In this document: in pieces, positions 6,666 through 58,965 of the stretch
How positions within the stretch are numbered: position 1 is the stretch's first letter
How the letters are laid out: each line of letters begins with the position of its first letter
NCBI GenBank assembly: GCA_910890315.1
Contig: CAJVGD010000012.1
Location: 186,001 to 250,000 of the forward strand
Source: Serendipita indica DSM 11827
Taxonomy: Eukaryota; Basidiomycota; Agaricomycetes; Sebacinales; Serendipitaceae
Direction of reading: 5' to 3'
Length of the DNA: 64,000 nt
The notes under the pieces: generated by a model
Databases searched by the model: none
The model's input: only the letters and a program-made list of their open reading frames with translations
Told to the model about the DNA's origin: nothing
Made by a program: the position numbers and the translations under genes

Positions 6666-6796
6666 ACTCTGAACTCTTGCACAATGGAAGAACACACGGC
6701 CAATCACAGATAATCTATGCCATTCACTATGTACTAGACAAATTCTTTCTTATAATGGAGACCGTCGTCGCCTTTTGAGTTCGCTTCCACCCGAGC

Positions 6797-9700
6797 CTAT
6801 CCAAGGACACTGGCGAGGAGTGCCATTCGAACCTGACCTTGATCAGCTGCGTGAACAGGCTAGAGCTGCATTTACTCACAAAGAGACCGTAACGCATCTG
6901 GCGGAAGTACACCGCACGTCGAGCGTCAAAGTCGACTTCTGGGTCAATTTCTGCAAAGGGAAAGTCAATGAGTGAATGACACGACAGAAAAAGGGAGTGA
7001 AACGAACCGTTGACACGAGGAAGTGGATGCATCACGATCATATCCGGTTTCGCTCTGGCGAGCACCGCGTGATTCACCACGTAGCTCGACGCGACCGCCT
7101 GCCACGCCTCTTCGCTCTCGAATCGCTCCTTTTGCACGCGGGTGACGTAAAGCACATCCGTGTGTTCCAGCACGTCGTCCAGAGACTCGCAGATGGTGAA
7201 AGGAATGCCCGCCCTGCGCACAGCGTTCACGATCGAGTCTGGCATCGCCAACGAAGGTGGAGAGACAAAGTTGAGGCGAACCGAATAGAACATGAGCAGC
7301 GTCACGAGACTATGCACCGTTCTGCCATTCTTCAGGTCCCCAAGTAGCGTGATCGTACGACCATTGACTGTGCCAAGTTCGGACCGGATGGTGTAAATGT
7401 CGAGAAGAGCCTGCGTCGGATGCTCTCCGATGCCATCCCCAGCGTTGAGGATCGGAACCGGCGAGAAGTTTGCAGCAGTCTGCGCACTCCCGACAGCCGG
7501 GTGGCGGATCACGATTCCATCCGCGTAGCAAGCGAGGGTTCGGATCGTGTCTGCAATAGTCTCTCCTTTCATGACCGAAGACGTGTTTGCCGTCACTTGC
7601 ACTACTTCTCCTCCCAGCCGCTTCATAGCCGCTTCGAAGGACGTACTCGTCCGGGTTGATGGCTCGTAGAAGAGGGTGCAAAGGACTCGGCCTTTGAGCA
7701 GGTCAATAGAGCCATTCCGCTCAACTTGCAATCGCATCTCGTGGGCGAGATCGAAGAGATCATGGATATCCTGGTGCTTGAATTGCTTGACGGAGAGGAT
7801 ATGTCGGCGATGGAAAGCTGGATGTGGTCGAGTAAGTGAGGCCAGAGCTACACTAGTGATTGCAGGGGCTGGTATTTGTCTGTTCGTCGGCGGCGAACCA
7901 ACATTTGTCACCGTCTCTGCAACTGCGCGGGTCGCAGGAGTTGTAGCCGTGAGTGCGGGAGCTTGTGCCAACTCGGAAGCTGACGGCCTAGCAAACGCAA
8001 AGGAGCCTCGCGATGCTCTGTCTGCCTGCCTACCAATTGTAAAGGCTGCAGATGAGAGGTCCCGACCAATAGCAGACGTAAAGGCAGCGCCGTCGAGGAA
8101 GACAGTTTGTCCTTGGATAAGCACTCTGTTGACATTTCCCACGACGTTCTTCCCTTGAAGTGGTGACCAGCACTTGGACTTTTGTCGGAATGGCGAGGCC
8201 CGATTCAACACCACTTCGACCTGAGTCTGAGGTTGCTCCAGAATGCCAAAGATCTTGACCGGGTTATCATGTAAGCGCAGTTTGATGTCCTCGAATGTGA
8301 GACGCTTCTCTTGGACGGCTCCAAGGAGCAAGGGTAGCGCTTCTTCAACGCCAGAGCGTGGAGAGACATCTTGTCCAAGCTCGAGGGCCAGCTGATACGG
8401 TACCAGTCCGACAGAGAATGCGTCGATAATATCTAGTGACTCCCACAGAGCATCTTGATCCTCTTTAGTGGGGAGAGATGCAACGTTGGCAAATGAAATT
8501 TGATCGAAGAAGAGCGTATAGACGCCAACGTCACACGTAACCCCCAAGTTACGCCCTTTGCTGAGTTTGATGAGTTCTATATCGGCTTTGGTGCTAACGT
8601 CGGTGACATGAAGCTTCCGTTGGTGAAGGCTCGCCAACAAAAGGATGGATGCAAGATTCGGTGACTTGGCATCCGTGATGATGGGTTTATCCGCAGGCCA
8701 ACGAGCAATTTGCTCTGCCAGCGCAGTCACAGGGGATGCCTGAAGAATGGGATTGAAAGGAAGGTAGAGCGCTTTCACCTCCCCAGCCACCTCATCTGTG
8801 ATCTCCTTGATATTGGCGCCCGTTGCAGCGACCGAAAGGGAATAGTTGCAGTGGGATGACCCAGCGGCGTTCTTCTGAGCAGTGGTCAACGATGCATCGT
8901 CGATAATGCTACCATGCAGGCCGATCGGGCTCAACAGGGCTGTGGTAAATCCACCGCAAACTGAAGCTTTGGAGACCTCCGAGACATCGGCGGAGTTGGG
9001 AACAGCGATGTTCGGAGTGAATGCGCATATATTGATAAGACCAGGAAGAACGTGTGTCGTGTGGGAAGTCTTGCTGTCCACTGCGGACACGTTCAAGGGC
9101 ATCTTGCGAACCAATGCTTCCGCGAGAATCTTGGCACATTTGACATTAGTGATGAGGGGGATATCAAAGTCGATGGCCATTCGGCGAGTGCGATAGCCTT
9201 TCGAGCTATAGCTTGCTGGCCTTCGGTACCTGTTCTTGGACGGAAGGTTGATGTAGAGCTCGATGACATTACTGGCCAGGTGCTGGGTGAGGGAGAATTC
9301 GGATTTTTGCTCCGAATAGTCGTCTGGAAGTGCCTCCAGGTACTGAATCAAGTTAGATTCGGATTAATGCAGTTTGAAATTACCTCACCTTGCAGGGAAC
9401 GTTATGTTCGTTGAAGAAATCAGCGGTGCCAGACGTTCCGAACAGGGTAAAGCCCGCAGCAGCTAGTTTCTGTGCCGAAGGAAGCATCTCCAGCTTCTCT
9501 TTGAAGCTGCCGATGGAGAATAGAATATTCTTCTTGGGCAGAACGATACCGGTGGACAGAAGTGCCTTGATATACGCCTCGTACTTGTCTCTTCCGAAGC
9601 AGGCGACCTCTCCCGTCGAGGCCATCTCAACACCGAGGATAGGATCTGCACCCGAGAGACGACTAAAGGAGAACTGCGGCACCTTGACGCCAACGTAGTC

Positions 9701-12700
9701 TGATGGGAGGTCTACTAATGGATATGGTTCTACTGGGATACCGAGCATGACCTTGGTAGCCATCTCAATCGCGTCGACGCCAGTGACCTTTGATACGAAA
9801 GGGAAAGAGCGAGCGGCACGAAGGTTGCATTCGATAACCTTGATCTGGTTGTTCTTCGCAAGGAATTGGATGTTGTAGGGACCAGTGACGTTTAATGCCT
9901 CGCCGATCTTTGCAGTTGCATCTTCAATGCGTCTAACAGTCTCCGGATCAAGATCTTGAGGTGGAAGGACGAGCGTCGCATCGCCAGAGTGAACACCAGC
10001 ATTCTCGATGTGCTCTGAGATGTAATGCATCACCAATTTTCCGTCCTTGGCTACTGCATCGACTTCAATTTCTTTGGCCTCCTCGATGTACTTGGTGATA
10101 ACCACAGGATGATCACGGGAAACTGCAGTCGCTTGGGTCAGATAGTTGTGGAGATCATCCGCCGAAGAAACCACGTTCATGGCGGCACCAGAGAGCACAT
10201 AGGAGGGTCGAACCAATACGGGATACCCAACAGTCTCGCAAAAGGCCCGTGCCTCGTCAAAACTATTGAGCTCCTTCCATTGGGGCTGATCAACGTGGAT
10301 GCGGTCCAGTAGACGGGAGAACTTGAACCTATTCTCCGCTGTATCGATCATTTCTGGTGACGTGCCGAAAATCTTGACGTTTTGGCGATGAAGTGAGAGA
10401 GCAATGTTGTTCGGACTCTGCCCACCCATGGAGATAATGACTCCAGCCGCCTTCTCGGTATCGTAGATATCAAGAACAGTCTCGAGACTGATGTTCTCGA
10501 AGTAGAGACGATCGGCTTCGTCGTAGTCGGTACTGACTGTCTCAGGATTGTAGTTCACCATCACCGTCTTTAGGCCTTGCTCTCGCAGCGTCCGAATGGC
10601 ACCAACGGCACACCAATCAAACTCGACGGAGGAACCAATGCGGTATACTCCAGATCCCAAGACGATGACACCTTGATCGTTGAATGAGACATCATGCTCC
10701 ATCGCGTTGTAGGTGGTGTAGAGGTAATTGGTTGCGGCAGGAAACTCTGCCGCAACCGTGTCGATCTGTTTGATGAATGGAGCGATGCTGTTCTCCTGCC
10801 TCATCTTTCGAACAGCAAGTTCCGTAGAGCCCATACAGCTCGCTAGTTGCTTGTCGGAGAAGCCCATACGCTTTGCGCGCTGGAGTATAGTTGGGGTAAT
10901 AGTCGAGACAGATAGTTTACTGTGCATACGTGATCAAAATCAAGTATCAAACAATCATGAATACTCACGACAGCTCAACTTCCGTCTGGTAGAGATAGAA
11001 TAGCCGTGTAAGGAACCATTTGTCGATCCTTGTCTTCTCCCAAATGCTTTCGACAGTATAACCTTTGTGGAATGCGTTGGCGATAGCGAAGATCCGCTTA
11101 TCGGTGGGCTTGAAAAGCTCTTCTTCGAGATTGTCGACACAGATATCGTTCTGAAACTCTGTAAGCCAAGAAGCAGAGAAGTTAAAAGGTGTTCACCTGG
11201 CCGAATCCTAAGAATTGATCATCGATTGCCCGAATGGCCTTCTGAATCGTTTCTTCAAAGGTTCGCCCTATGCTCATCACCTCTCCAACACTCTTCATAC
11301 TGCTGCTCAAGACCTTGCTGACACGAGTGAACTTCTTGAGATCCCATCGAGGAATCTTGACAACCACATAGTCGAGGGATGGCTCGAAGCACGCGCTTGT
11401 GACTTTAGTAACAGAGTTCTTGATCTCGTTGAGAGGGATACCAAGACCGAGTTTAGCCGCGATGAAGGCTAGAGGATATCCGGTGGCTTTGGATGCAAGA
11501 GCCGACGACCTTGACAGACGAGCGTTGACCTATTTGGATGCTTTTAGAGATTAACAACAGATAGAAGCGAGCCCAAACCTCAATGATGCAGTATTCCCTG
11601 GAATTGGGATTCAAAGCGTATTGAATATTGCATTCTCCAACAACGCCGAGATGGCGGATCACGTTGATTGCTGTCGTCCTAAGCATATTGAAATCCGTGT
11701 CCGAAAGTGTCTGCGAAGGAGCAACAACGATAGAGTCGCCTGTGTGAATGCCCAGGGGGTCAAAGTTCTGTCAAAGTGAGTAAAATCCGAGACATTCACA
11801 AAGGACTCACCTCCATGTTACACACGACAATGCAGTTATCCCTGCAGTCGCGCACAACCTCGTACTCAATCTCCTTCCACCCTTTCATACTCCGCTCGAC
11901 GAGAACTTGAGGACTGGTGGCGAATGCCTTGCCACAAAGCTCGCGGAGTTCGGCTTCATTCTGAGCAAACCCAGAACCAAGTCCACCGAGAGCATATGCT
12001 GCACGTACAATAACTGGGAAGCCAATCTTATTCGCGGCAATAACCGCGTCGTCTGGCGTGGTAGCAGTCGCAGATTCAGCACACTTCTCGCCAATCTGGA
12101 GCATGGCATCCGCGAAGCGTTGTCTGTCCTCGGTCTCGATCAAAGTGGCAATCGGAGTGCCAAGTACTTTGACTCCAAGTTCCTCAAACTCATCGCGGAG
12201 TTTGATGCCAACGTTCAAGGCGGTTTGACCACCGAATGTGACGTAGATACCGTCTGGCTTTTCGTACTTGATAATCTTGCGAACGAACTCGGGGGTGACG
12301 GGGAGGAAGTACACTTTGTCGGCCAATCCTTTGGAAGTGGCGATGGTGGCGATATTGGGGTTCACGAGAATGGTGTATATTCCCTCCTCCTTGAGTGCCT
12401 TGAGAGCTTGAGAACCAGAATAATCGAATTCTCCGGCTTGACCGATGGAGAGACCACCGGAGCCGAGAACTAAGACCTTGGAGACATTGACGCGGGTCGA
12501 ACCGGGAGTGTATTTGCGATTAGCAAGGGAAATGGGCAGTGGATCATTGGTACGGATGGTATCCTCGACATTCTTCAGGAAGACGTCGAAGAGAAACTCT
12601 GTGTCGCGAGGTCCTGGAGTCGACTCGGGGTGGAACTGGACCGAGAAGAATGGCTTATCGAGACAGTAAATACCCTCGTTGCTACCATCGTTGGCGTTCT

Positions 12701-13880
12701 TAAAGAGCTCCTTCCAGTTGGATGGCAGGCTCTGCACCTCGACTTGATAACCGTGGTTTTGACTCGTGATATAACAGCGTCCGTTGAACGACTCTGTGCA
12801 CGGAATATTATGTCCACGGTTTCCGTACTTCATTTTCGAGGTGGTTGCACCAGCGGCTAGTGCGAGCAGCTGGTGACCCAAACAGATGCCGAAGATGGGT
12901 GTATCCCGTTCGAGTGCCTTGCGCAGCCGTTCGATGGTAATTGTGACCATGGTTGGGTTACCTGGGCCGTTTGAGATGAAGAGACCATCATAGACCTCTG
13001 AAGAAGCCAAAAAATCGTAGTCCCAAGGGACCACCTTCAACTCTACACCACGCTTGGTGAAGCAGCGGATTTGGTTGAACTTCATGCCGACGTCGATGGC
13101 GAGTACGCGCAGAGGACGCTTCTCGGTCGGATGCATGCGAATTGAGTCGGAGCTCGGCTTGAAGAGACGGGTCTGCTTGGTAGACACGATGGCGACGAGG
13201 TTGTCCTGGTTTGGATCATGGAAGGGAACGACATCAAATTCTTCTTGCCAAGAGTCTGCATAGCCGGAGAAAGGGTTACGTTGTGTCAAGGGGGTCTGTG
13301 GAGGTCCGATGGGTTCGACAAGAGAACCGCTGGTTCGTTTGGCCAATAGTCTCCCGGGCAGGGAACCCTTCTCGCGAATACGCTTGGTAAGAGCCCTAGT
13401 GTCTACTCCTTGGATCGCTGGTACATTATTCTCCTTGAGCCACGCGCCGAGAGATGACGCTGCCAGAAAGTGGCTAAACTCTTCAGAGTGATAACCGACA
13501 ATGAGCGCAGCGACATGAATTCGAGACGACTCGAAATCGTCTGGAATCTTGTCTAGCTCTGCTTTCACACGCTCTGGTACGCCGTAGTTGCCAATGAGAG
13601 GATACGTGAGGACAAGGATCTGGCCCTCGTAGGAGGGATCGGTCAGGGCCTCTGTATAGCCAACCATGCCTTTTTGAAGAAAAAGTCAGGAAATCTGCGG
13701 ATTTTAAAGAGATGGCGCGTACGGACCAGTTTGAAAAACGCATTCGCCTGCGACGCTCTTGCCTGCTGCTCCAAAACTGGTCCCAGGGAACAAGGAGCCA
13801 TCGCTGAGTTCGAGAACGGCGTCTATAGCACCGTCGAATGCTGCTGGTATTGCCTTCAAGCTGCTGCTGGTGCCGTTCAT
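6797..13880 (-). CDS. URA2: Multifunctional carbamoyl-phosphate synthase / aspartate carbamoyltransferase
   Basis: Nine exons: 13880-13727, 13669-11811, 11767-11579, 11529-11197, 11156-10969, 10919-9389, 9342-7008, 6950-6880 and 6832-6797, giving 2231 aa, close to yeast Ura2. Domain order: glutamine amidotransferase (nucleophile Cys314 in FGICLGHQ), the two ATP-grasp halves of CPSase, a dihydroorotase-like linker (about 1480-1850) and aspartate transcarbamylase ([32 protein letters not shown]), ending [10 protein letters not shown]. It makes carbamoyl phosphate from glutamine and joins it to aspartate, the first two steps of UMP synthesis, in the cytoplasm. The linker is degenerate: the zinc-binding HxH of true dihydroorotases is replaced (PGLINICAF at about 1518), as in other fungi, so a separate URA4-type enzyme is expected elsewhere. 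Family members are feedback-inhibited by UTP. Confidence 0.97.
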
Positions 13881-38801: not shown

Positions 38802-39440
38802 TCAGTCTTTGGCGTATTGGGTAAATGGATAGGAATAATGTCGCTTGACGATCTCCGCCGCGTCCTCTTGGACGAGCGACAGGCTCGCGCCCGTTGTTGT
38901 CGTCGTGGACGCAAGTGCCGGAATAGGTGTCCCGGACGAGGAATGGGACGTAGGTAATCGCATCTTGCGCTCTTCACGGTGGACACGCCAGTTTTGATAC
39001 GCCCTCCGTGCCAGGTCCGCAAAAGAGGGACCGAGCAAGACGACGCCAGCGCGCCTCATTGCCTCGAGTCGATCTTCGACCCAGGCTTGTGAGATACGTC
39101 CGTCTGCGACAGGATTCGCACCCATTGTCGTCGTTGCAGAAGAAAGCGAGGGGACTTTGCCGGCCTCGAGCTCGTCGAGAATCTTGTACAGGTTCTTCTT
39201 GTAGAATAACCCAAGTGTACATGCGCCTCGAAAAGTTTGGGTGAGGAATTTTGCGCGACGCTGGACGTAGCGGTATCCCTTTGTTGGAGAGAATGCAAGC
39301 TCGTGCAGCTCACCGTCGCCCGTGACATTGCCCGTCTTGTCTGTAAAATGGATGAAATAGGCCCAATGACTCGGTTTTTTCTCCGACTCGTTGGCGCTGT
39401 ACTGGACGATTTGGAGCAGATAGAGATCCTTCGCCCCCAT
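38802..39440 (-). CDS. Uncharacterised single-exon protein (212 aa)
   Basis: One uninterrupted exon, in contrast to the intron-rich neighbours. It opens MGAKDLYLLQIVQYS. The first 90 residues look folded (SHWAYFIHFTDKTGN, GELHELAFSPTKGYRYVQRR) and resemble fungal proteins that start with a strand-rich LYLVQ...HWAYF...LHE segment (DUF6914-like, low certainty). The C-terminal half is helical and then Ser/Thr-rich, ending SYPFTQYAKD. No signal peptide or membrane segment. No catalytic motif is recognised and I assign no function. Confidence 0.65.
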   Translation of the reverse strand: MGAKDLYLLQIVQYSANESEKKPSHWAYFIHFTDKTGNVTGDGELHELAFSPTKGYRYVQRRAKFLTQTFRGACTLGLFYKKNLYKILDELEAGKVPSLSSATTTMGANPVADGRISQAWVEDRLEAMRRAGVVLLGPSFADLARRAYQNWRVHREERKMRLPTSHSSSGTPIPALASTTTTTGASLSLVQEDAAEIVKRHYSYPFTQYAKD

Positions 39441-39875
39441 TAGGGGCGAAAAGTGTAGGATGGGGAGAGAGGCCTTGACTGTGTTCCGGCAAACTGCCCA
39501 AGCTTGATATACCCGTGGTCCTCACAGCCCTTGCACGTGCGAAACGGCAAACGGACAAGGGAAATCATTCACTATTTTCAGTCAGCAGCCGGACGGACCC
39601 AGGGCTAGTTCGCGAAGGCCCGAGAGAAACCAAAATAAAAAAAATTTAAGAGAAAATCCGTTTGCGTATCAGCCCATGAGGTTGGTGGGAAGCACTGGAA
39701 ATTTAGGTTATGTACAGAACTTGTCCCCGTGGAGGATGCCGAAGATAAGATAAAATGGGCTCTCTTTGAAAGTCCGCTACCACGATGTATGTCAGAAAGA
39801 GTCTAGCAGCCTCCTTGGCACGGATGTCCCTACCTGGTTATCACCTGGTCTTCTTTTCGCGCGCTAGCGCGCCCG
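39441..39875. other. Intergenic region
   Basis: 435 bp: promoter of the single-exon gene (both flanking genes are on the minus strand) and 3' region of the Smr gene. An A-rich patch lies near 39630-39655. No gene seen. Confidence 0.5.
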
Positions 39876-40980
39876 CTACATGGCCACGCATTGCTCGTCG
39901 TCCCTCTCCAAGCGGCGCTGGATCTCGTCAACCCCCATGCCTCGCTCGCCACGTTGAGGACCGTTGAGCTGGACAATAAGGACACCAGCATTGTTTGGGT
40001 CGATTTGTGCAGCCAACTGGTATCTGCCAAAAGGCCGGTCAGATCCTCGACAAGGCTTGGGAGAAGGGCGAGAGGAACGCACTTGACCATGAGCTCCTCG
40101 ATCGCTGGTTTCAGTTTGGCGACATGGCCCTGAGAATGCAATCCTTTGCCTGCGAGCAACGTGAATGGCATTGTTGTAGGCACGCCCCTCTACGAACCAA
40201 CGATGAAATGAATGTCCGAGTCGCCACGTTGCTGAGCTGCCTGAATGGCCTGCTCAGATCGAGCTATCGCCTCTTTCACATAGAGCCCGTGCAGATCGAC
40301 CTCGTTGAGTGCAGAGTCGGTATTGTTTGCTGGCGCGGGTCAAGTGAGGGAATCGGCTACGAGGACGGTCACGTACCATGGAATATCCAATCGCAAGCTT
40401 GTCGATTCAGTTCCTCCATCTCTGCCTTGTGCCGCTTGCCCTCCTCGGACAGTTGCTTTGCGCGTGCCCCATCACCAGACTCGTACGCCCGCTTGCTATC
40501 CTCAAATGCACGTCCCATCGCATCCCCCGCCTGGTTCGCACGTTTCCGCAAGTCGAGATCTGATTTCCGGTCAGGAGTCGAAAACACGCCGGAGACGAAC
40601 ACTCACAATGTGGGTTATGTTGGTTGACTTGATTCTCGTCCTATAAATCCATCACATGAGTACACAAAGTGGCGCAACGTCTCGTAAAAAACCACACGCA
40701 CGACGCGCTGGTGGAGGGGTCTGGGTGGACGGCCGCTCGGAGCATGTTGACCAGACGGTGGAGAGGGAGGTTTATGTGACTTTGTAGGCTTCTGTTGGTA
40801 TTGCTGAGGTGGTTTTGGGTGCGCTGGTGGTTGGTATGTGGGCTGTTGGGCGTGTTGTGGGGCCGAGGGTTGCTGAGCTCCTGGATATCCAGCGTTTGGA
40901 GCCTGGGATTCCTGTTTTGTGGGCTTTTGAGAGCCACAAAGAAGCTGGAAGACTTGAAGGAGAATGTCGAGGAGCCCCAT
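39876..40980 (-). CDS. Smr-domain protein with DUF1771
   Basis: Six exons: 40980-40705, 40640-40607, 40559-40377, 40329-40198, 40149-40083 and 40023-39876, giving 279 aa. A hydrophobic start (MGLLDILLQVFQLLCG) is followed by a Pro/Gln-rich linker. Next come a DUF1771 helical module (LRKRANQAGDAMGRAFEDS) and a C-terminal Smr domain with NEVDLHGLYVKEAI and the GKGLHSQGHVAKLKPAI motif (GxxxHS-type). Eukaryotic Smr/DUF1771 proteins bind or cleave nucleic acid, some in ribosome quality control (Cue2 type). The DLHG Asp/His are present, so nuclease activity is possible. The hydrophobic N-terminus might anchor it to a membrane. Confidence 0.88.
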
Positions 40981-41189
40981 GGCTGTTCCGGAGATGGCGG
41001 CAGGGTTCAACCTGCGCTGGCAGCTCTTTGAGCGTCGACGTTCCTGAGGAAAATATATCAGGCTTAGACGTATTGTACAGCATAGTATCATATTCTGGAT
41101 TTCAGAGTCGCGAGTCATCGTGACCGTGAAGATATCCAAGATGGTGCTATCAAATAAACAATGAAAATGAAATAGACATATAACGCAAG

Positions 41190-44100
41190 TCATACAGGTT
41201 GGTTGGGCACAATAAGCTTGAGAAACTCCTTGTAACGGTCATCTTTCCCAAATTCTTCAATACATATTCCTATGGTCTCTTGTAAGAGCGTGGCAGCCTC
41301 TTCAAGTTGGCCGCCCTTGCATAATGTCATACAGAGGCTATAAGAGGCGTTGAGCGATTCTGGATGACGTTGTCCAAGAATCTCATGGCGCAGAGAAAGG
41401 ATCTCTCGCTCTATTTTCTCTGCTTCTTCCAGTCGATCACGTTGATATAGAACGTTGGCAAGATTGGTCATCGCAGAAATGGTGTCTGGATGCCGTGGTC
41501 CAAGAATCTCCAGCTGCAGAGCGAGTACATCTCGCTTCATCTTTTCTGCCTCGTCCAGCTGACCACGGGAGTGCAAGGTCGTTGCAAGGTTGTTCATTGC
41601 TCGAATGGTGCCTGAATGCCGTGGTCCAAGAATCTCCAGCTGCAGAGCGAGTACATCTCGCTTCATCTTTTCTGCCTCGTCCAGCTGACCACGGGAGTGC
41701 AAGGTGGCTGCAAGGTTGTTCATTGACAAAATGGTGTCTGGATGACGTGGTCCAAGGATCTCCAGCCGCAGAGCGAGTACATCTCGCTTCATCTTTTCTG
41801 CCTCGTCCAGCTGACCACGGGAGTGCAAGGTGGTTGCAAGGTTTCCCATTGCAGAAATGGTGTCTGGATGCCGTGGTCCAAGAATATCCAGCTGCAGAGC
41901 GAGTACATCTCGCTTCATCTTTTCTGCCTCGTCCAGCTGACCACGGGAGTGCAAGGTGGTTGCAAGGTTTCCCATTGCAGAAATGGTGTCTGGATGCCGT
42001 GGTCCAAGAATCTCCAGCTGCAGAGCGAGTACATCTCGCTTCATCTTTTCTGCCTCGTCCAGCTGACCACGGGAGTGCAAGGTGGCTGCAAGGTTTCCCA
42101 TTGCAGAAATGGTGTCTGGATGCCGTGGTCCAAGAATCTCCAGCCGCAGAGCGAGTACATCTCGCTTCATCTTTTCTGCCTCGTCCAGCTGACCACGGGA
42201 GTGCAAGGTGGTTGCAAGGTTTCCCATTGCAGAAATGGTGTCTGGATGCCGTGGTCCAAGAATCTCCAGCCGCAGAGCGAGTACATCTCGCTTCATCTTT
42301 TCTGCCTCGTCCAGCTGACCACGGGAGTGCAAGGTGGTTGCAAGGTTGTTCATTGACAAAATGGTGTCTGGATGACGTGGTCCAAGAATCTCCAGCCGCA
42401 GAGCGAGTACATCTCGCTTCATCTTTTCTGCCTCGTCCAGCTGACCACGGGAGTGCAAGGTGGTTGCAAGGTTTCCCATTGCAGAAATGGTGTCTGGATG
42501 CCGTGGTCCAAGAATATCCAGCTGCAGAGCGAGTACATCTCGCTTCATCTTTTCTGCCTCGTCCAGCTGACCACGGGAGTGCAAGGTGGTTGCAAGGTTT
42601 CCCATTGCAGAAATGGTGCCTGAATGGCGTGGTCCAAGAATCTCCAGCCGCAGAGCGAGTACATCTCGCAGAATCTTTTCTGCCTCGTCCAGCTGACCAC
42701 GGGAGTGCAAGGTGGCTGCAAGGTTTCCCATTGCAGAAATGGTGTCTGGATGCCGTGGTCCAAGAATCTCCAGCCGCAGAGCGAGTACATCTCGCTTCAT
42801 CTTTTCTGCCTCGTCCAGCTGACCACGGGAGTGCAAGGTGGTTGCAAGGTTTCCCATTGCAGAAATGGTGTCTGGATGACGTGGTCCAAGAATCTCCAGC
42901 TGCAGAGCGAGTACATCTCGCTTCATCTTTTCTGCCTCGTCCAGCTGACCACGGGAGTGCAAGGTGGTTGCAAGGTTTCCCATTGCAGAAATGGTGTCTG
43001 GATGCCGTGGTCCAAGAATCTCCAGCTGCAGAGCGAGTACATCTCGCTTCATCTTTTCTGCCTCGTCCAGCTGACCACGGGAGTGCAAGGTGGTTGCAAG
43101 GTTTCCCATTGCAGAAATGGTGTCTGGATGCCGTGGTCCAAGAATCTCCAGCCGCAGAGCGAGTACATCTCGCAGAATCTTTTCTGCCTCGTCCAGCTGA
43201 CCACGGGAGTGCAAGGTGGTTGCAAGGTTTCCCATTGCAGAAATGGTGTCTGGATGCCGTGGTCCAAGAATCTCCAGCTGCAGAGCGAGTACATCTCGCT
43301 TCATCTTTTCTGCCTCGTCCAGCTGACCACGGGAGTGCAAGGTGGCTGCAAGGTTTCCCATTGCAGAAATGGTGTCTGGATGACGTGGTCCAAGAATCTC
43401 CAGCCGCAGAGCGAGTACATCTCGCTTCATCTTTTCTGCCTCGTCCAGCTGACCACGGGAGTGCAAGGTGGTTGCAAGGTTTCCCATTGCAGAAATGGTG
43501 TCTGGATGCCGTGGTCCAAGAATCTCCAGCCGCAGAGCGAGTACATCTCGCTTCATCTTTTCTGCCTCGTCCAGCTGACCACGGGAGTGCAAGGTGGCTG
43601 CAAGGTTGTTCATTGACAAAATGGTGTCTGAATGACGTGGTCCAAGAATCTCCAGCTGCAGAGCGAGTACATCTCGCTTCATCTTTTCTGCCTCGTCCAG
43701 CTGACCACGGGAGTGCAAGGTGGTTGCAAGGTTTCCCATTGCTGAAATGGTGTCTGGATGACGTGGTCCAAGAATCTCCAGCCGCAGAGCGAGTACCTCT
43801 CGCTCCATCTTTTCTGCCTCATCCAATTGACCGCAACTATACAACGCACTACCAAGTTTACCCATCACCCACATCGAACTTTTATGCTTTAGACCATGAT
43901 CCTGCTGAACTTGGTAAAACGCAGTCTCTAACAGTTCTCGACAAGTCTTCCAGTCACCCAATGGATGATAAAGCTTATAGAACGCCAATGCGTGTGCCAT
44001 ATTCTCTGATTGCACCGATTGTGGGATCTTGGTGGCGTGTGGAAGTAGTTGCCAAAACCGCGCATTGCTACCCTCAACTGGCCGGATCGCACCAAGTATC

Positions 44101-46500
44101 AGTTGAGTAGTCGCACGCGCGTACTCTCGATTATCCTCCTGACTAGAACAATCCTTGATGTACATCTGAAGTAGTGGGTGGACGGCGTAGAATAGTCCAT
44201 CAGTCGAAACATGGATAAATGATGCGCGTGTAGCCGATTCCACGATCTCTTGGAATTCGACCTCGTCCCACGTTGAGCCCAGAATCTCCTTGAGCTTCTG
44301 GATGACTGATTTGTCACCCTCAGGGGGAGGATAATCGTCCAGGACCGTGTATATTGCGAAACCGGCCTCTGTCGAGTGCTGGAACAAAGAGATCGGAATA
44401 TCCGAATGGTGAAGAAATGCACACAGCTTTAGGAGCTCTTGTGTCTTTGTCGGTAGGGTTTGGAAAGACAGGTCGAATGCAGCGTACGTCGAGGATGTAT
44501 ATTCATTCCCGATATCTGGCTGCTTCCGTAGAAGTCGCTTTCGATGACTTCGCAACGTATCAAGGTACGTGTCGAGCCGGCGTGTCTTGCGAATATATGA
44601 CCCCGCTTGAGTAATCGCCAGCGCCAGCATCCCTAGCTCCTGAACAATCTCCACAGACTTGGTATCGGACGTGGGTGTGACATTAGCGAGCTTATGAAGG
44701 AGATTGATTGCCTCATTCTCCTCCAGTCCACCAACAGGAACAGCACCATCCGGAGCGTAGCTTATGCACTCGCTGTTCCTTGTGGTGATTAGAATTGCTC
44801 CATGGACGCAAACAGGGAGATATGGGCGGAGGTTGAGATCTGGCGAGTCGGCATTGTCGATAAACAGCAGCCAGCCCCTTTCCTTGCCGCCGAGGTAGGC
44901 GACTGCATCCTTCCAGGTCATCTTGTTGTACTCTGCCCCCAATGAGCGAATCGACCGTTCCAAGTCTGCTTCTATCTGCGTTTGACTGGAAGCGTCAACG
45001 AAAATCACCCGACTGAAGCTGGAAACAAGTCAGAGATTCTCCAGAAATCGCTATAGATCTTACCTGGAACCATGCTTCCGAACCCAGCTGGTTGCGAGTT
45101 GAGTTTTGCCTGAACCCCCGATTCCATGTAGTATACACCGCAGTTGATCTTGTACGCTCCCCGGAAGCAGCTTCTGTGTGATCAGGGACTGAATCTCCTT
45201 TCTCTCGACATAGCTCCTTGACACCGGTGGACAGGGCTTCGCCACTATCATTTCCTGAGAGATGACCTCTCCCTTTGCCGCACCTGCGTACTCATCAGCT
45301 AAGCAGAGGCGATGAAGTGACTACAAACTGCGACAGCTGTCCTCTGTAATCCACTTCTCCTGTACCGCAGCAGACGCGCTGTCGACATAGTCTTTGAGAT
45401 GGTGGTGAATCGTCTTATAGTTGTCGTCCTCCTTGGATGAGAATCGAACTAAATCGCGGTGATTCGCATGAAGGATCGTTGTCGTCGCCTTGCGGTCGCC
45501 AGATATAGTGGCCGAGTGATATGAAACATTCTGTTGCTCATTCAGTATATGATTCCTTATTGAGGATTCACCACCAAGTCTTCTCGATTCCCAATACCGG
45601 ATGTCGCATATTCCGCGCAGAAGAAGATGCTGTTGATATTCTCGCTCGCCGCGAGGTACAGACTCTGGATATTCTCTAGTTCAGATGAATGGGGTCGAAG
45701 GTCCTTGAGGAGAATGTCTGTTGTTTCCATATAGGCCGATGCCAAGCGGTTGATTGCCTCGAGGACGCTAGTACTGTCGAGGCCAGAGTGAGGGGTCCCG
45801 AAGAATAAGATGGCATGCGTGGATACAAGAATGTCCCGGAGCTCGCCCTTGGATGCCAAACTCTGATTATGACAAATGACGAGAGCCTAGGAGAGCATCA
45901 GCGATTAGTCTCATTGGAGCTTGTGTGACGCACCCATTTGAGAATGATACCCCCTAGGTCGTGTGCTACGAAAATGATCGGACGCTAGTTGCTGTTCAGT
46001 GGAAACCGGCAAGGAAGTGTAAATTACGGACTCGAGGATTGTCTTTCCGCATCCGTGAGAGTGCCTGAGCCAGTGTCTCGGCATGTCGACGCATAGTCAG
46101 AGTTGATACGCATTCTGTACTGCGAGTGTCGGCGTCGTAACCATATAGAAGAATTCGAGCGTTGGATATGTCGGTAGGCAAGAGGTCACGTAGCCACAAG
46201 ACCCCTCCATCTGTCGTCCACGTCTTCTCTCTATGTCCTTGCAAACCATGGATAGCGATAATACTGTCAGGCCAAGTGAGCGGCGAACACGTGTAATGAG
46301 CGGCGCACTTACTCGACGGTAGGGTTAGTCCCAGAAGCAATTTCCAGAACCCCGAGATTATCTATCTTCGACTCGAGCTTCAAAGATGATGGCCTGCTAC
46401 TCTTGGGCGGATCCAGAGGTCCAGGTGTGGATTCGCCCTTCTTCTGCGGCGATGGGGAGCGACGCAGGATGTTTCTCAGACGTAAACGAGTTTTGAGCAT
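41190..46500 (-). CDS. NLR-like STAND protein: alpha/beta-hydrolase-type domain, NB-ARC-type P-loop domain, tandem TPRs
   Basis: Seven exons: 46500-46313, 46263-46032, 45984-45934, 45886-45575, 45530-45329, 45283-45064 and 45018-41190, giving 1677 aa. Residues 60-310 form a SesB/lipase-like alpha/beta-hydrolase domain (IIAIHGLQGHREKTW, FFGTPHSGLD). Its nucleophile elbow reads AHDLGG, with Asp149 where Ser is expected. A nucleotide-binding domain follows, with Walker A GIGGSGKT (382-389) and Walker B LLFIDNAD (452-459), then ILITTRNSE and a winged-helix-like region. From about 799 there are some 19 nearly identical 42-aa TPRs of kinesin-light-chain type, then two decayed ones. Fungal proteins of this layout mediate non-self recognition and regulated cell death; the TPRs are the likely ligand sensor. 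The donors of exons 2 and 4 are weak. No stop interrupts the 3.8-kb last exon. Confidence 0.88.
41436..43829 (-). repeat. Tandem array of about 19 x 126-bp TPR-coding repeats
   Basis: The unit is 126 bp (42 codons, reading QLDEAEK...LHSRG) with almost no nucleotide difference between copies. Variation is confined to a few codons: MK or IL before RDVLAL, Q or R before LE/LD, PD/SD/SG after GPRH, SAMG/LSMN/RAMN, and AT or AA. Combinations recur in blocks. Because the period is a multiple of three, copy-number change keeps the frame. The same property leaves long open frames on the opposite strand, which are shadows. Flanking units at both ends are diverged, as expected if homogenisation works in the centre. 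Confidence 0.95.
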
Positions 46501-51613: not shown

Positions 51614-52622
51614 ATGGACACGGCAATAACCACCCAAAACGCGTCTTCAGAACGTGAACACGATGAATATCAGTATCTAAGACTGCTCAAGACGGTCATG
51701 GACACTGGAGAGACGCGCGCAGATCGCACGGGAACGGGAACTCTGGCCGTCTTTGCCCCACCTAGTCTCCGATTCTCTCTAGAGAACAATTCGTTTCCAT
51801 TGCTCACCACAAAGCGCGTCTTTTTGCGTGGAGTGATCGAGGAGCTCCTCTGGTTTGTCAGAGGCTCCACCGACGCGCGATTGCTTTCCGAGCGCGGGGT
51901 AAAGATTTGGGATGGAAATGGCTCGCGAGCATTCCTGGACGCGCGTGGACTGAGTCATCGCCGCGAGGGAGATTTGGGTCCAGTCTATGGCTTTCAATGG
52001 CGGCATTTTGGTGCACAATACGTCGACTGTGAGACCGACTATACCGGACAAGGCGTCGATCAGCTCAAAGAAGTGATTCGAAAGATCAAAGAAGACCCGA
52101 CCGATCGACGAATCATCATGAGTGCGTGGAACCCCGCGGGTGCGTCGGTTTGGCCTAGTATGGTTCCTCAAATTCATCATGCTCACATAATCTCCTCCCG
52201 ATTTTTTAGACTTGTCACTCATGGCTCTCCCGCCTTGCCACATGTTTTGCCAATTTTATGTCCACCTCCCGCCTCAAGGGTCAACTACCGTCAAGCCCGG
52301 CCTGTCTTGCCTAATGTACCAACGTTCCGCGGATCTCGGTCTCGGAATTCCATTCAACATCGCCTCGTACGCTCTCCTTACCCACATGGTTGCCCATGTC
52401 ACCGGTACAGAGGCCCGCGAGCTAATTATGCAACTCGGAGATGCTCATGTTTACAAAGACCACGTCGAGCCCCTAAAGACCCAACTCGAGCGCACACCAC
52501 GAACGTTTCCAACGCTGCGGTTCTCGCGTCCCCTGGACGACATTGACGCATTTCGATATGAAGACTGCATTGTCGAGGGATACAGTCCGCACCCGAACAT
52601 TCCAATGGTGATGAGCGTATAA
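51614..52622 (+). CDS. CDC21: Thymidylate synthase
   Basis: Two exons, 51614-52139 and 52210-52622, give 312 aa, standard for the enzyme. Motifs in order: [62 protein letters not shown], the catalytic Cys185 in [14 protein letters not shown], and [18 protein letters not shown]. It methylates dUMP to dTMP using methylene-tetrahydrofolate. All catalytic residues are present. The symbol follows the yeast name (CDC21/TMP1). Expression is normally S-phase dependent, and a possible MCB-like element lies just upstream. Confidence 0.97.
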
Positions 52623-56509: not shown

Positions 56510-58965
56510 TCAGTCGTCCTTAGGTTTAGCAGCCGCGGCCTCGCTCTCACTCGACGCAGGAGGCGACACTTTCTCCTGTAAATCGGTCAGCCCTGACCTC
56601 TGACAACCCGTGGTGGCTCACCTTCTCGGCCGCTTCCTTGCGAGCTTTTTCTTCGGCTTCTTCTTTTTCCTTCTTCTCCTTTTCCTCTCTCTCCTTGCGC
56701 GCTTTCTCTTCTGCTTCCTCTTTTTCCTTGCGAGCCTTTTCTTCGCGCTCCTTGCGGCGCTTCTCTTTGGCGACGCGCTCTTTTTCTTCCTTTTCTTCGC
56801 GTTCCCTTGCCAAGCGTTCACGGAGTTCACGCTCTTTGATAACCCATTGGCCGACTTGTCGCACAGCCTCCTCTGGACGCGACTTGTGCTTCAACAAGAC
56901 TATTGAATGGGTGATAAGTCACGTGTGACATGTTTATGGGTCTCTACTCACATCCTTGCAGCTCTGCAACCGAGAATTCCTCGTTTGGTACTGCCTCCGC
57001 AAATGCCTTGGCCAATTCGGACAGGCGAGCAGCATCCAGGAGGGTCGTACCGAGAGAAGAAGCACTTTCAAGGGTTGGAAGAGCATCCTTGAGCGACTGC
57101 GGGGCTGCATCTGCCGATGGAGTTGCCGATGTTGAAGGGGTGGAAGGGGCAGGAGTCGTAGGAGCAGTTGGAGGTGTTGCAGCAGTCGAAGAGTTGTAGC
57201 TCGAGAAGAGAGAAGACGAAGGCGTACTCTCCGCCTCAAACTCCTCCGCAACTGGGAAAAAGTTGCGGAATAAGCCTTCAGCTTGGAATTTGGACGCGTT
57301 GCGGAACTCAATCCAGACATCCATACGACCGGGACTGTGGCAATGAGCCAAGGTCATCACTGAAAAAAAAAATCCAAATACGTACCGGGAGAGTGCAGGA
57401 TCAAGTCGCTCCAGATGGTTGGTTGTGCAGAAGAGGAGGCGTGCTTCGCTCGCTTGCATGCCATCCAATGCGTTGAGTAGGCCACTCAGGCTCAGCTTCG
57501 AGTCGTCCTTTTCTGCCTCCTTCTTGGTCTCTGGGCCTGCGGCGTCCTTGGTCTCCTTGGTTGCGGACGGAGCGCCAGTAGATTCCTTATCGCGCGAGGT
57601 CGAACGGGTAAATGCCGCATCAATGTCCTCCAAGAGTAGTATGGAGCGGGCGGGAATGCGACCCAAAAGTGAAGTCAACGACGCATCGTTGATCCAGCTG
57701 GCGGACAGCGACACGATGTAAACGTCAAGCGCCAATTCACCGGCGAGAGCGTGGATAAGACTGCTTTTTCCGGCTCCCGGTGTGCCGTGTAAAAGATAAC
57801 CGCGACGGTAGGGAATACCGCGGCTCGCGTACCATCTCTCGCTGCGAAGGAAGTCCTTTGCATCCGCCACAAGCATCTCTATCACCCCAGGGTTGAGGAC
57901 AATTGAAGAGAGCGGTCGCTTGTGTCCTAGAAAAAAAGGGTAAGTGATTCAACCAACACACCCCGGGCATCAACGTACTGCTGTCTGACCATCGCCACGA
58001 GCCGTGCTGATCAGCGAACTATCGATAGATAAGTATTGCATTACGTAGAAGCAGTGTTCACTGACGTAGATCTGCACTCTATCGACACACTCTTGTTCGT
58101 ACTGGGGACGGATGAGAACGCGGATGTGGCGTGCAAGTCATGTGGCTCACCTCTCGCTTCGCCTGGAGGACGAGCTGCTTGAGGATCGCATTCGAGCGAG
58201 CAACAACCGAGATGGTGAGCATTGACAATTCGCTTCCATCCGTCTTCTTTGATCGGCGAATGCGGAGGAGATGCCCCTTGTAATAGATGGTGTGGGTAGT
58301 ATCTGCGGGGAATCAGACCGACTTGGCAAGTCACTTCCGGTACTTACCGAGAGTTGGTTGGAAATGGACCTTGAGCCGGGGGCGTCCGTCATCCTCCTCG
58401 ATAACATCTTCGATGTCCTCTTCCACCTCATCACCAGCAGTGCGTTGACTGGAACGTCCAGTTGCAGTCACAGTTGACGTCTATACCCATCAGACACACG
58501 AGCGTTGACTACCTGTAAACTTACTGTCGCCTCGAACTCCCGTGAGCGGCTCCAGGCCGGTCTGAGAAGCGATGCGTCGGTCAAAATATAGATAATTTAA
58601 GAGAATATGACGTACTGTTTACTGAGCCAATTGAGCAGCCAGTCGTATGGCTGTGGGGAACAGACACACACGGTCAGTAAGCGGGCAGGAACGCAGCAGC
58701 CGCGACAAGCTTGATGAGCTCACATAGTCATCTTCACAAAAATGTGCGGTCAAATAGAACGAGCTGACAAACGAGTTCCAGCCCGACGATGCAGCCCTGC
58801 CTGGGACGACGCGTCAAGTGCTGCAACCAAGCTTTTGGGGCGGATTCTAAACTCACGAGCGGTCTCAACTGTTCCTCCAAGTATGACGAGCTTTGTTGCA
58901 TCGAGCACGCCTGAGCCAACGGCGCTGCTCGAAAGGGGCTGCAGCAACGACTTTGCAAAGTCCAT
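56510..58965 (-). CDS. BCS1-like AAA ATPase
   Basis: Twelve exons: 58965-58857, 58800-58724, 58650-58616, 58561-58525, 58480-58348, 58302-58151, 58089-58066 (24 nt), 58018-57979, 57926-57386, 57334-56952, 56899-56622 and 56575-56510, giving 624 aa. An N-terminal BCS1_N region (FYLTAHFCEDDYPYDWLL, then VQIYFADQHGSWRW) precedes the AAA core: RGYLLHGTPGAGKSSLIHA (Walker A about 249-258), SILLLEDIDAAF (Walker B), the sensor CTTNHLERLDPALSRPGRMD and a Lid. BCS1 inserts the Rieske protein into mitochondrial complex III. Filamentous fungi have many BCS1-like paralogues with unknown clients, and the KEREEK-rich coiled tail (about 530-600) marks this as such a paralogue, not the core BCS1. Confidence 0.88.

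Follow-up and report, generated by a model that had tools for sequence, protein, structure and literature searches.

The stretch analysed here, hereafter the window, comprises 64,000 nucleotides of the Serendipita indica DSM 11827 genome (contig C12, positions 186001-250000) and lies within a 1.26-Mb contig of an assembly of 24.7 Mb in 55 contigs. The predicted protein of one gene on its minus strand identifies that gene as an apparently intact fungal NLR, in which a hydrolase-like effector is followed by an NB-ARC domain and a sensor of 42-residue TPR units. The features of the gene, in window coordinates, are as follows.

41190-46500, minus: NLR gene, seven predicted exons, 1,677 amino acids (splice model guided by homologous proteins; presumed start codon)
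46500-46313, 46263-46032, 45984-45934 and 45886-45575, minus: predicted exons 1-4 (homologue-guided splice sites)
45530-45329, 45283-45064 and 45018-41190, minus: predicted exons 5-7 (homologue-guided splice sites)
45773-46262, minus: alpha/beta-hydrolase-like, DUF676-like effector, residues 64-195, span including introns (Pfam and homologue blocks)
45934-45984, minus: nucleophile elbow exon, VAHDLGG, with Asp where most homologues have Ser (motif and alignment)
45340-45782, minus: effector/linker tract only 64-72% identical to an inverted sister gene (stepwise identity)
44634-45179, minus: NB-ARC domain with P-loop GGSGKT, residues 364-530, span including an intron (Pfam)
43840-44889, minus: NB-ARC/linker tracts 97-100% identical to the sister gene, interrupted at 44290-44439 (87%) (stepwise identity)
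43779-43904, minus: diverged N-terminal cap TPR unit (unit comparison)
41511-43778, minus: 18 near-identical TPR units of 126 bp, or 42 codons (TRF, codon register, Pfam TPR_10/TPR_12)
41385-41510, minus: first diverged C-terminal cap unit (35/126 differences from the consensus)
41259-41384, minus: second diverged C-terminal cap unit (62/126 differences from the consensus)
40772-41258, minus: 3′ end of the gene and 3′ flank shared with the inverted sister (C12:173.8-174.3 kb; alignment)

The predicted spliced protein contains no internal stop, and the minus-strand open reading frame at 41190-45008 falls within its last exon. A TAG at 45321-45323 was considered as a sign of a pseudogene and rejected: it sits in the predicted 45-bp intron 5, and we read it as intronic because homologous proteins read through at this point (e.g., 'EDNCR..AAKG'), as fits an intron of that length. 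The spliced protein was needed to detect the NB-ARC domain, which matched Pfam at 30.0 bits (cut-off 23.5); single exons gave only matches below the cut-off. The DUF676 match of the spliced protein is slightly below its cut-off (18.8 versus 20.3 bits), and the N-terminal effector has conserved blocks common to its homologues, some of which carry PF05057 in precomputed annotation. The NB-ARC domain with its P-loop and the C-terminal superstructure-forming TPR repeats are those of a fungal NLR (STAND) protein. An antisense open reading frame of 871 amino acids (41495-44110, plus strand) was rejected as a gene; it is the stop-free frame of one unit, multiplied by the array.

Because housekeeping-type reading frames occur in the same window (6727-13667 and 51614-52546; by eye, CAD/URA2-like pyrimidine synthesis and thymidylate synthase), the NLR gene seems to be set among core genes. 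A small downstream gene (39830-41193, minus), Smr-type-like by eye, has its 5′ part copied in the sister locus, and Pfam searches with two of its reading frames gave no match. A nearby reading frame at 38802-39440 (minus) matches DUF6540 at 28.3 bits (cut-off 27). Imperfect short tandem repeats of 57 and 33 bp at 56634-56771 adjoin a minus-strand reading frame (56944-57885) that appears by eye to encode a BCS1-type ATPase.

The first-pass annotation had described about 19 near-identical 126-bp TPR units flanked by clearly diverged ones. TRF reported 18.8 copies of a 126-bp repeat at 41469-43832, with 95% matches, 0% indels and a score of 4274, and together with a parse in codon register it confirms the array; the exact count of near-identical units is 18, the rest being the diverged caps, of which the N-terminal one is separate and the two C-terminal ones differ from the consensus to the extent listed above. 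The spacing is exactly 126 in all 20 gaps between the 21 units, the reading frame is open throughout, and Pfam scores the array at 792 bits (TPR_12) and 761 bits (TPR_10). The 18 core units comprise 14 distinct sequences, with mean pairwise identities of 95.7% (nucleotides) and 92.5% (amino acids; lowest pair 81.0%). Over 18 x 42 amino acids, this places the array among the highly internally conserved (HiC) repeats of the survey in PMC4986451 (>85% repeat identity over at least 100 amino acids), in which 42 amino acids is also the usual TPR unit length. Stretches of 231 and 214 bp recur exactly, 5 and 10 units apart, and higher-order periodicity of the units was not significant in a permutation test of 13 offsets (lowest P about 0.05, for an offset of 5 and before correction). 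Variation is found in 18 of the 126 columns. As the first-pass annotation had stated, the variable sites are few and fixed in position: amino-acid changes are confined to 10 of the 42 codons (1, 8, 9, 12, 13, 15, 19, 33, 34 and 41), and at codons 2 and 6 all differences are synonymous. The variants at codons 15 and 34 differ by two or three bases, and the intermediates are absent from the window array.

How might this uniformity be maintained? Purifying selection on the protein alone, acting with no turnover at the DNA level, would keep the repeats alike, and an N/S of 0.26 away from the hot codons in nine homogenised arrays speaks for constraint of this kind. However, third codon positions show much the same uniformity as first and second ones (variable at 7 of 42, against 11 of 84), in line with the earlier claim that synonymous sites are as homogenised as the rest. 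Comparison with other arrays of the same genome also bears on this explanation. We surveyed a set of loci for arrays, taking the best-scoring candidates of genome searches, and obtained 395 units in 35 groups, 32 of them with at least four units; a second array piece at the sister locus was counted as its own group. Repeats are nearly identical in some of the 32 groups and well diverged in others, and mean core identity is at least 0.90 in 9 of the 31 arrays with at least three core units, namely the window array and eight others. Within the window array piS is 0.038; in the 30 arrays whose core comprises four or more units, the window included, it ranges from 0.03 to 0.67 and exceeds 0.4 in 11. 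Because arrays of the same repeat type differ so widely in piS, synonymous identity is not imposed by the repeat type as such, and we regard protein constraint on its own as an extremely improbable explanation.

The nearest relatives of individual units provide a second line of evidence. In 26 of the 32 arrays the first unit is most closely related to the first unit of a different array, and in 21 of 32 the last unit is closest to a last unit elsewhere. The latter count includes some 'last' units that are no genuine caps, because 12 of the 32 arrays end no more than 126 bp from a sequence edge. The nearest neighbour of a mid unit lies inside its own array in 157 of 259 cases and outside it in 102. 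Of the second units, 20 of 32 have theirs in another array, as have 25 of 32 among the penultimate ones. We attribute these out-of-array neighbours to the common unit families of sister arrays; there are array pairs whose between-array identity equals or exceeds that within the array. The core units of the window are 95.7% identical within the array, against 91.6% to the nearest other array. Among 25 hand-picked homologous proteins, seven of them from S. indica, the repeats of 20 are closer internally than to the window units and those of five are not. The window array thus has the pattern of concerted evolution, its units being more alike within the gene and its end units escaping. On the evidence of the nucleotide sequences, the 18 central repeats have been homogenised at the DNA level and the end units have not.

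An inverted sister gene occupies C12:169.4-175.1 kb, at a distance of about 52 kb from the window NLR gene. Along the shared 3′ flank the two loci have only 3 differences in 484 aligned bases, plus a 12-bp indel, and the match ends abruptly at 40772; this near-identity suggests a recent event shared by both genes. Between homologous caps, which differ at 6, 4 and 5 positions per cap, the window array has 18 core units and the sister 12. The best unit register gives 9.1 mismatches per 126, against 9.4-12.4 in ten other registers, all of these values being inflated by two frame-shifted sister units, and little collinear register appears to be left between the arrays. The sister reading frame breaks at two 125-bp spacings, which may be real or sequencing errors. 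At the sister locus (C12:168800-175800), the 3′ flank gives way near 174320 to another piece of TPR array, six units long, and an open frame of 414 codons at this junction is a possible chimeric ORF.

These observations bear on the possibility that one unit was amplified once, recently, and that the copies have since changed by mutation only, with no continuing exchange. The presence of several identical units (14 distinct sequences among 18) fits such an event, and the exact 231- and 214-bp repeats could be block duplications. The sister, however, has the same unit family and unit haplotypes between its homologous caps and yet only 12 core units, although the event common to both genes appears recent, judged from the flank. 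Mutation alone also accounts poorly for codons 15 and 34, with their changes of two or three bases and their missing intermediates. We therefore consider a single amplification unlikely. Part of the unit number or uniformity could instead reflect collapse or expansion during assembly: passages of Ament-Velasquez et al. (PMC12222747) describe short-read assemblies of such arrays as unreliable, and sequencing error could underlie the two frame-breaking spacings of the sister. Against this stand the invariant 126-bp spacing and open frame of the window array, the differences among its units, its position within a 1.26-Mb contig and the eight other arrays with core identity of at least 0.90, and we assign such an artefact only a small chance.

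We noted that divergence between the window gene and its sister is far from even. In steps of 150 alignment columns, identity within the gene ranges from 64% to 100%, and the first step (46527-46378) gives 55%. The nearest relative of the poorly conserved effector/linker tract at 45340-45782, among the loci compared, is a third paralogue at C12:632-636 kb (85-90%), and in the same tract the sister's nearest relative among these loci is a paralogue on C2. Synonymous divergence (dS) in the last exon is 0.03 in two stretches, 0.47 between them and 0.22 at the start; it is 0.32 in the P-loop exon, >1 in linker exon 5 and 0.36 in exon 2, and exon 4 changes from 0.04 at its start to >1 in the rest. 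The extremes of 0.03 and 1.4 come from segments that were chosen after the identity profile had been seen; these and the permutation run predate the final splice model, and some segment edges include intron codons. Independently of segment choice, the longest run of identical synonymous codons is 121; 20,000 permutations of the 611 codons gave none longer than 107. Because dS is uneven, this run is long and the nearest paralogue switches along the window gene, we view the two genes as patchworks, and the uneven synonymous divergence of the pair indicates probable ectopic exchange. We found no support for codon haplotypes having been brought in from distant paralogues: a search of the arrays compared for the codon 12-15 haplotype TTGTCAATGAAC found it confined to the window array and the sister locus. 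The contrast in piS, the escaping end units and the comparison with the sister gene together support the original proposal that turnover at the DNA level, beyond protein constraint, has shaped this array.

Where do the units still vary? Magliery and Regan (PMC1261162), in the passages bearing on this point, list 2, 5, 9, 12, 13, 33 and 34 as the TPR positions that vary most and lie exposed on the concave surface. Adding 10 to the published position, according to our own motif alignment, gives codons 12, 15, 19, 22 and 23 of the 42-residue unit; positions 33 and 34, which have no clear counterpart in this unit, were left out. All five of these preset codons are among the seven that rank highest in within-array amino-acid heterozygosity over 30 arrays (19, 12, 15, 34, 41, 22 and 23). 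Compared with random five-codon groups, heterozygosity at the preset codons is elevated in the window array (P=0.011) and in the eight other homogenised arrays (P=0.0002), and outside the window lineage 0 of 100,000 groups reached the observed value. At these codons piN/piS is 1.68, against 0.45 elsewhere, in the nine homogenised arrays pooled, and 0.95 against 0.43 in all 30 arrays. The contrast within the window array is small (N/S of 1.31 against 1.13 for the rest), and the rest falls to 0.64 only after post-hoc removal of codons 34 and 41 as well, two helix-B codons that were picked after the data had been seen. Across the survey, piN/piS is >1 in 3 of the 30 arrays. The first-pass annotation had proposed a dN/dS comparison of variable and fixed positions. 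In our data, variation is enriched at TPR specificity codons, but positive selection in the window array alone is not significant (piN/piS 1.17, codon-bootstrap range 0.44-5.17). By codon comparison, the residual variation is concentrated at positions that line the ligand groove in other TPRs, and by analogy variation at such ligand-contact positions fits the reading of the gene as a receptor.

An AlphaFold2 model of eight repeats (the cap and seven units, from an alignment of 16 arrays) forms a TPR superhelix with a pLDDT of 95.0. Its top Foldseek matches are kinesin light chains (e.g., 7ai4 and 6swu), and these are also among the closest solved structures by sequence, the best of which is a TPR-like repeat protein of Podospora anserina (PDB 4y6w/4y6c, E 2.5e-27). 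The 42-residue repeats of this protein, a crystal construct of repeats, have the same fold as the window repeats (target-normalised TM-score 0.76-0.77), from which they differ in sequence (28% identity). Many homologues of the window protein are named 'related to kinesin light chain', and with the structural matches this name raises the possibility that the gene encodes a kinesin-light-chain-like cargo scaffold and not an immune-type receptor. Kinesin light chains are cargo adaptors with diverged repeats and, to our knowledge, have neither an NB-ARC domain nor an effector. The TPR superhelix is common to both. However, the window gene combines its repeats with an NB-ARC domain and a hydrolase-like N-terminus, and similarity of TPRs suffices to explain the name. 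In addition, the 274 NLR candidates of P. indica are the largest count in the parts of the 2014 survey that bear on this (PMC4986451). A cargo scaffold consequently seems very improbable to us.

The N-terminal domain does not conform to a serine alpha/beta-hydrolase of the SesB-like type, in that an Asp (AHDLGG) occupies the site of the nucleophilic Ser. At the loci compared in the same genome, the elbow motif has Asp (AHDLGG or AYDLGG) in 13 of 21 places and Ser (AHSLGG) in 8, and among 39 motif-bearing homologous proteins the residue is Ser in 31, Asp in 6 and Asn in 2. In the alignment, a conserved His is present in all 30 Ser rows and in 6 of the 7 Asp rows, among them that of the window. 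The Asp form may be an enzyme that uses Asp as its nucleophile, a pseudoenzyme or a binding module. A model of the Asp-type homologue P0073 gave as its top Foldseek matches Apaf-1, CED-4 and plant resistosomes; it is silent on catalysis because its mean pLDDT is 71.7 and no hydrolase was seen among the 50 PDB matches listed. Excerpts of PMC9815663 describe SesB-like domains as almost missing from basidiomycete NLRs, and because of this description the family is perhaps under-annotated.

A bolder reading joins these observations. The sister gene, whose frame is apparently broken, could be a non-working donor cassette, from which ectopic conversion between the inverted copies, about 52 kb apart and swapping tracts, would rewrite the array length, the groove residues and the effector of the window gene, and the Ser to Asp swap of the hydrolase effector in the same subfamily could define a distinct effector class. 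A comparable arrangement is found in silent-cassette antigen systems, which are likewise rewritten from a non-working copy, with the difference that here a receptor would be rewritten. We offer this combined proposal as a speculation that is doubtful as it stands.

We consider it very likely that the window gene is an apparently intact NLR with repeats homogenised at the DNA level, a patchwork relation to its sister and variation at groove sites, the product of exchange combined with selection. Unequal exchange and gene conversion, among the repeats and between the sister genes, would keep the array uniform while its length changes. Selection on a few codons per repeat would alter binding by the superhelical groove; binding of a ligand would then open the NB-ARC switch and bring effector domains together, with non-self recognition or regulated cell death as the probable outcome. 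We know of no ligand for the NLR receptors of S. indica.

Both the class and the mechanism are already known (Dyrka et al. 2014), and, as far as our searches of the open-licence literature go, in which no paper on this NLR locus came up, what is new is the member and the comparison with its sister. According to parts of that survey (PMC4986451), 21.2% of the TPR repeats in fungal NLRs are HiC, mostly of 42 amino acids, and isolates of P. anserina carry different numbers of repeats in their sesB-like/NB-ARC/TPR genes. HiC TPR NLRs such as Pa_2_10340 share with the window gene the domain order, the mostly 42-residue TPRs, the high repeat identity and the restriction of variable sites to few helical positions. 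The window gene differs in being from a basidiomycete, in its 18 core units and in the Asp at its nucleophile elbow, and the evidence comes from paralogues of one genome, whereas isolates were compared in the survey. The het-d, het-e and NWD NLRs of P. anserina likewise have near-identical repeats, concerted evolution and hypervariable sites, and passages of PMC12222747 on WD40 NLRs describe repeat exchange between genes and conflicting trees along the gene. In contrast to the window gene, het-d and het-e combine NACHT, WD40 repeats and a HET effector and have a ligand, HET-C, and an incompatibility phenotype. The first-pass annotation had taken such repeats as an established hallmark of WD40, ANK and TPR NLRs that recognise variable ligands; this holds for WD40 proteins, ligand recognition being established for HET-D/HET-E in parts of PMC12222747, but the TPR evidence in the corresponding parts of PMC4986451 consists of polymorphic repeat numbers and positive selection and does not extend to ligands. 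Gene conversion among clustered NLRs is discussed in passages of a survey of the Sordariales (PMC12258605), and sections of the S. indica genome paper (PMC3192844) report expanded NB-ARC, NACHT and TPR domains in this root symbiont.

Earlier comparisons of fungal NLR arrays, as described in parts of PMC4986451 and PMC12222747, were made between isolates. The arrays of one genome, together with an inverted sister pair, separate the constraint imposed by the repeat type from turnover of the DNA with no need for isolates, and the window NLR gene provides a concrete locus at which the speed of change in the sensor of a fungal receptor may be measured.
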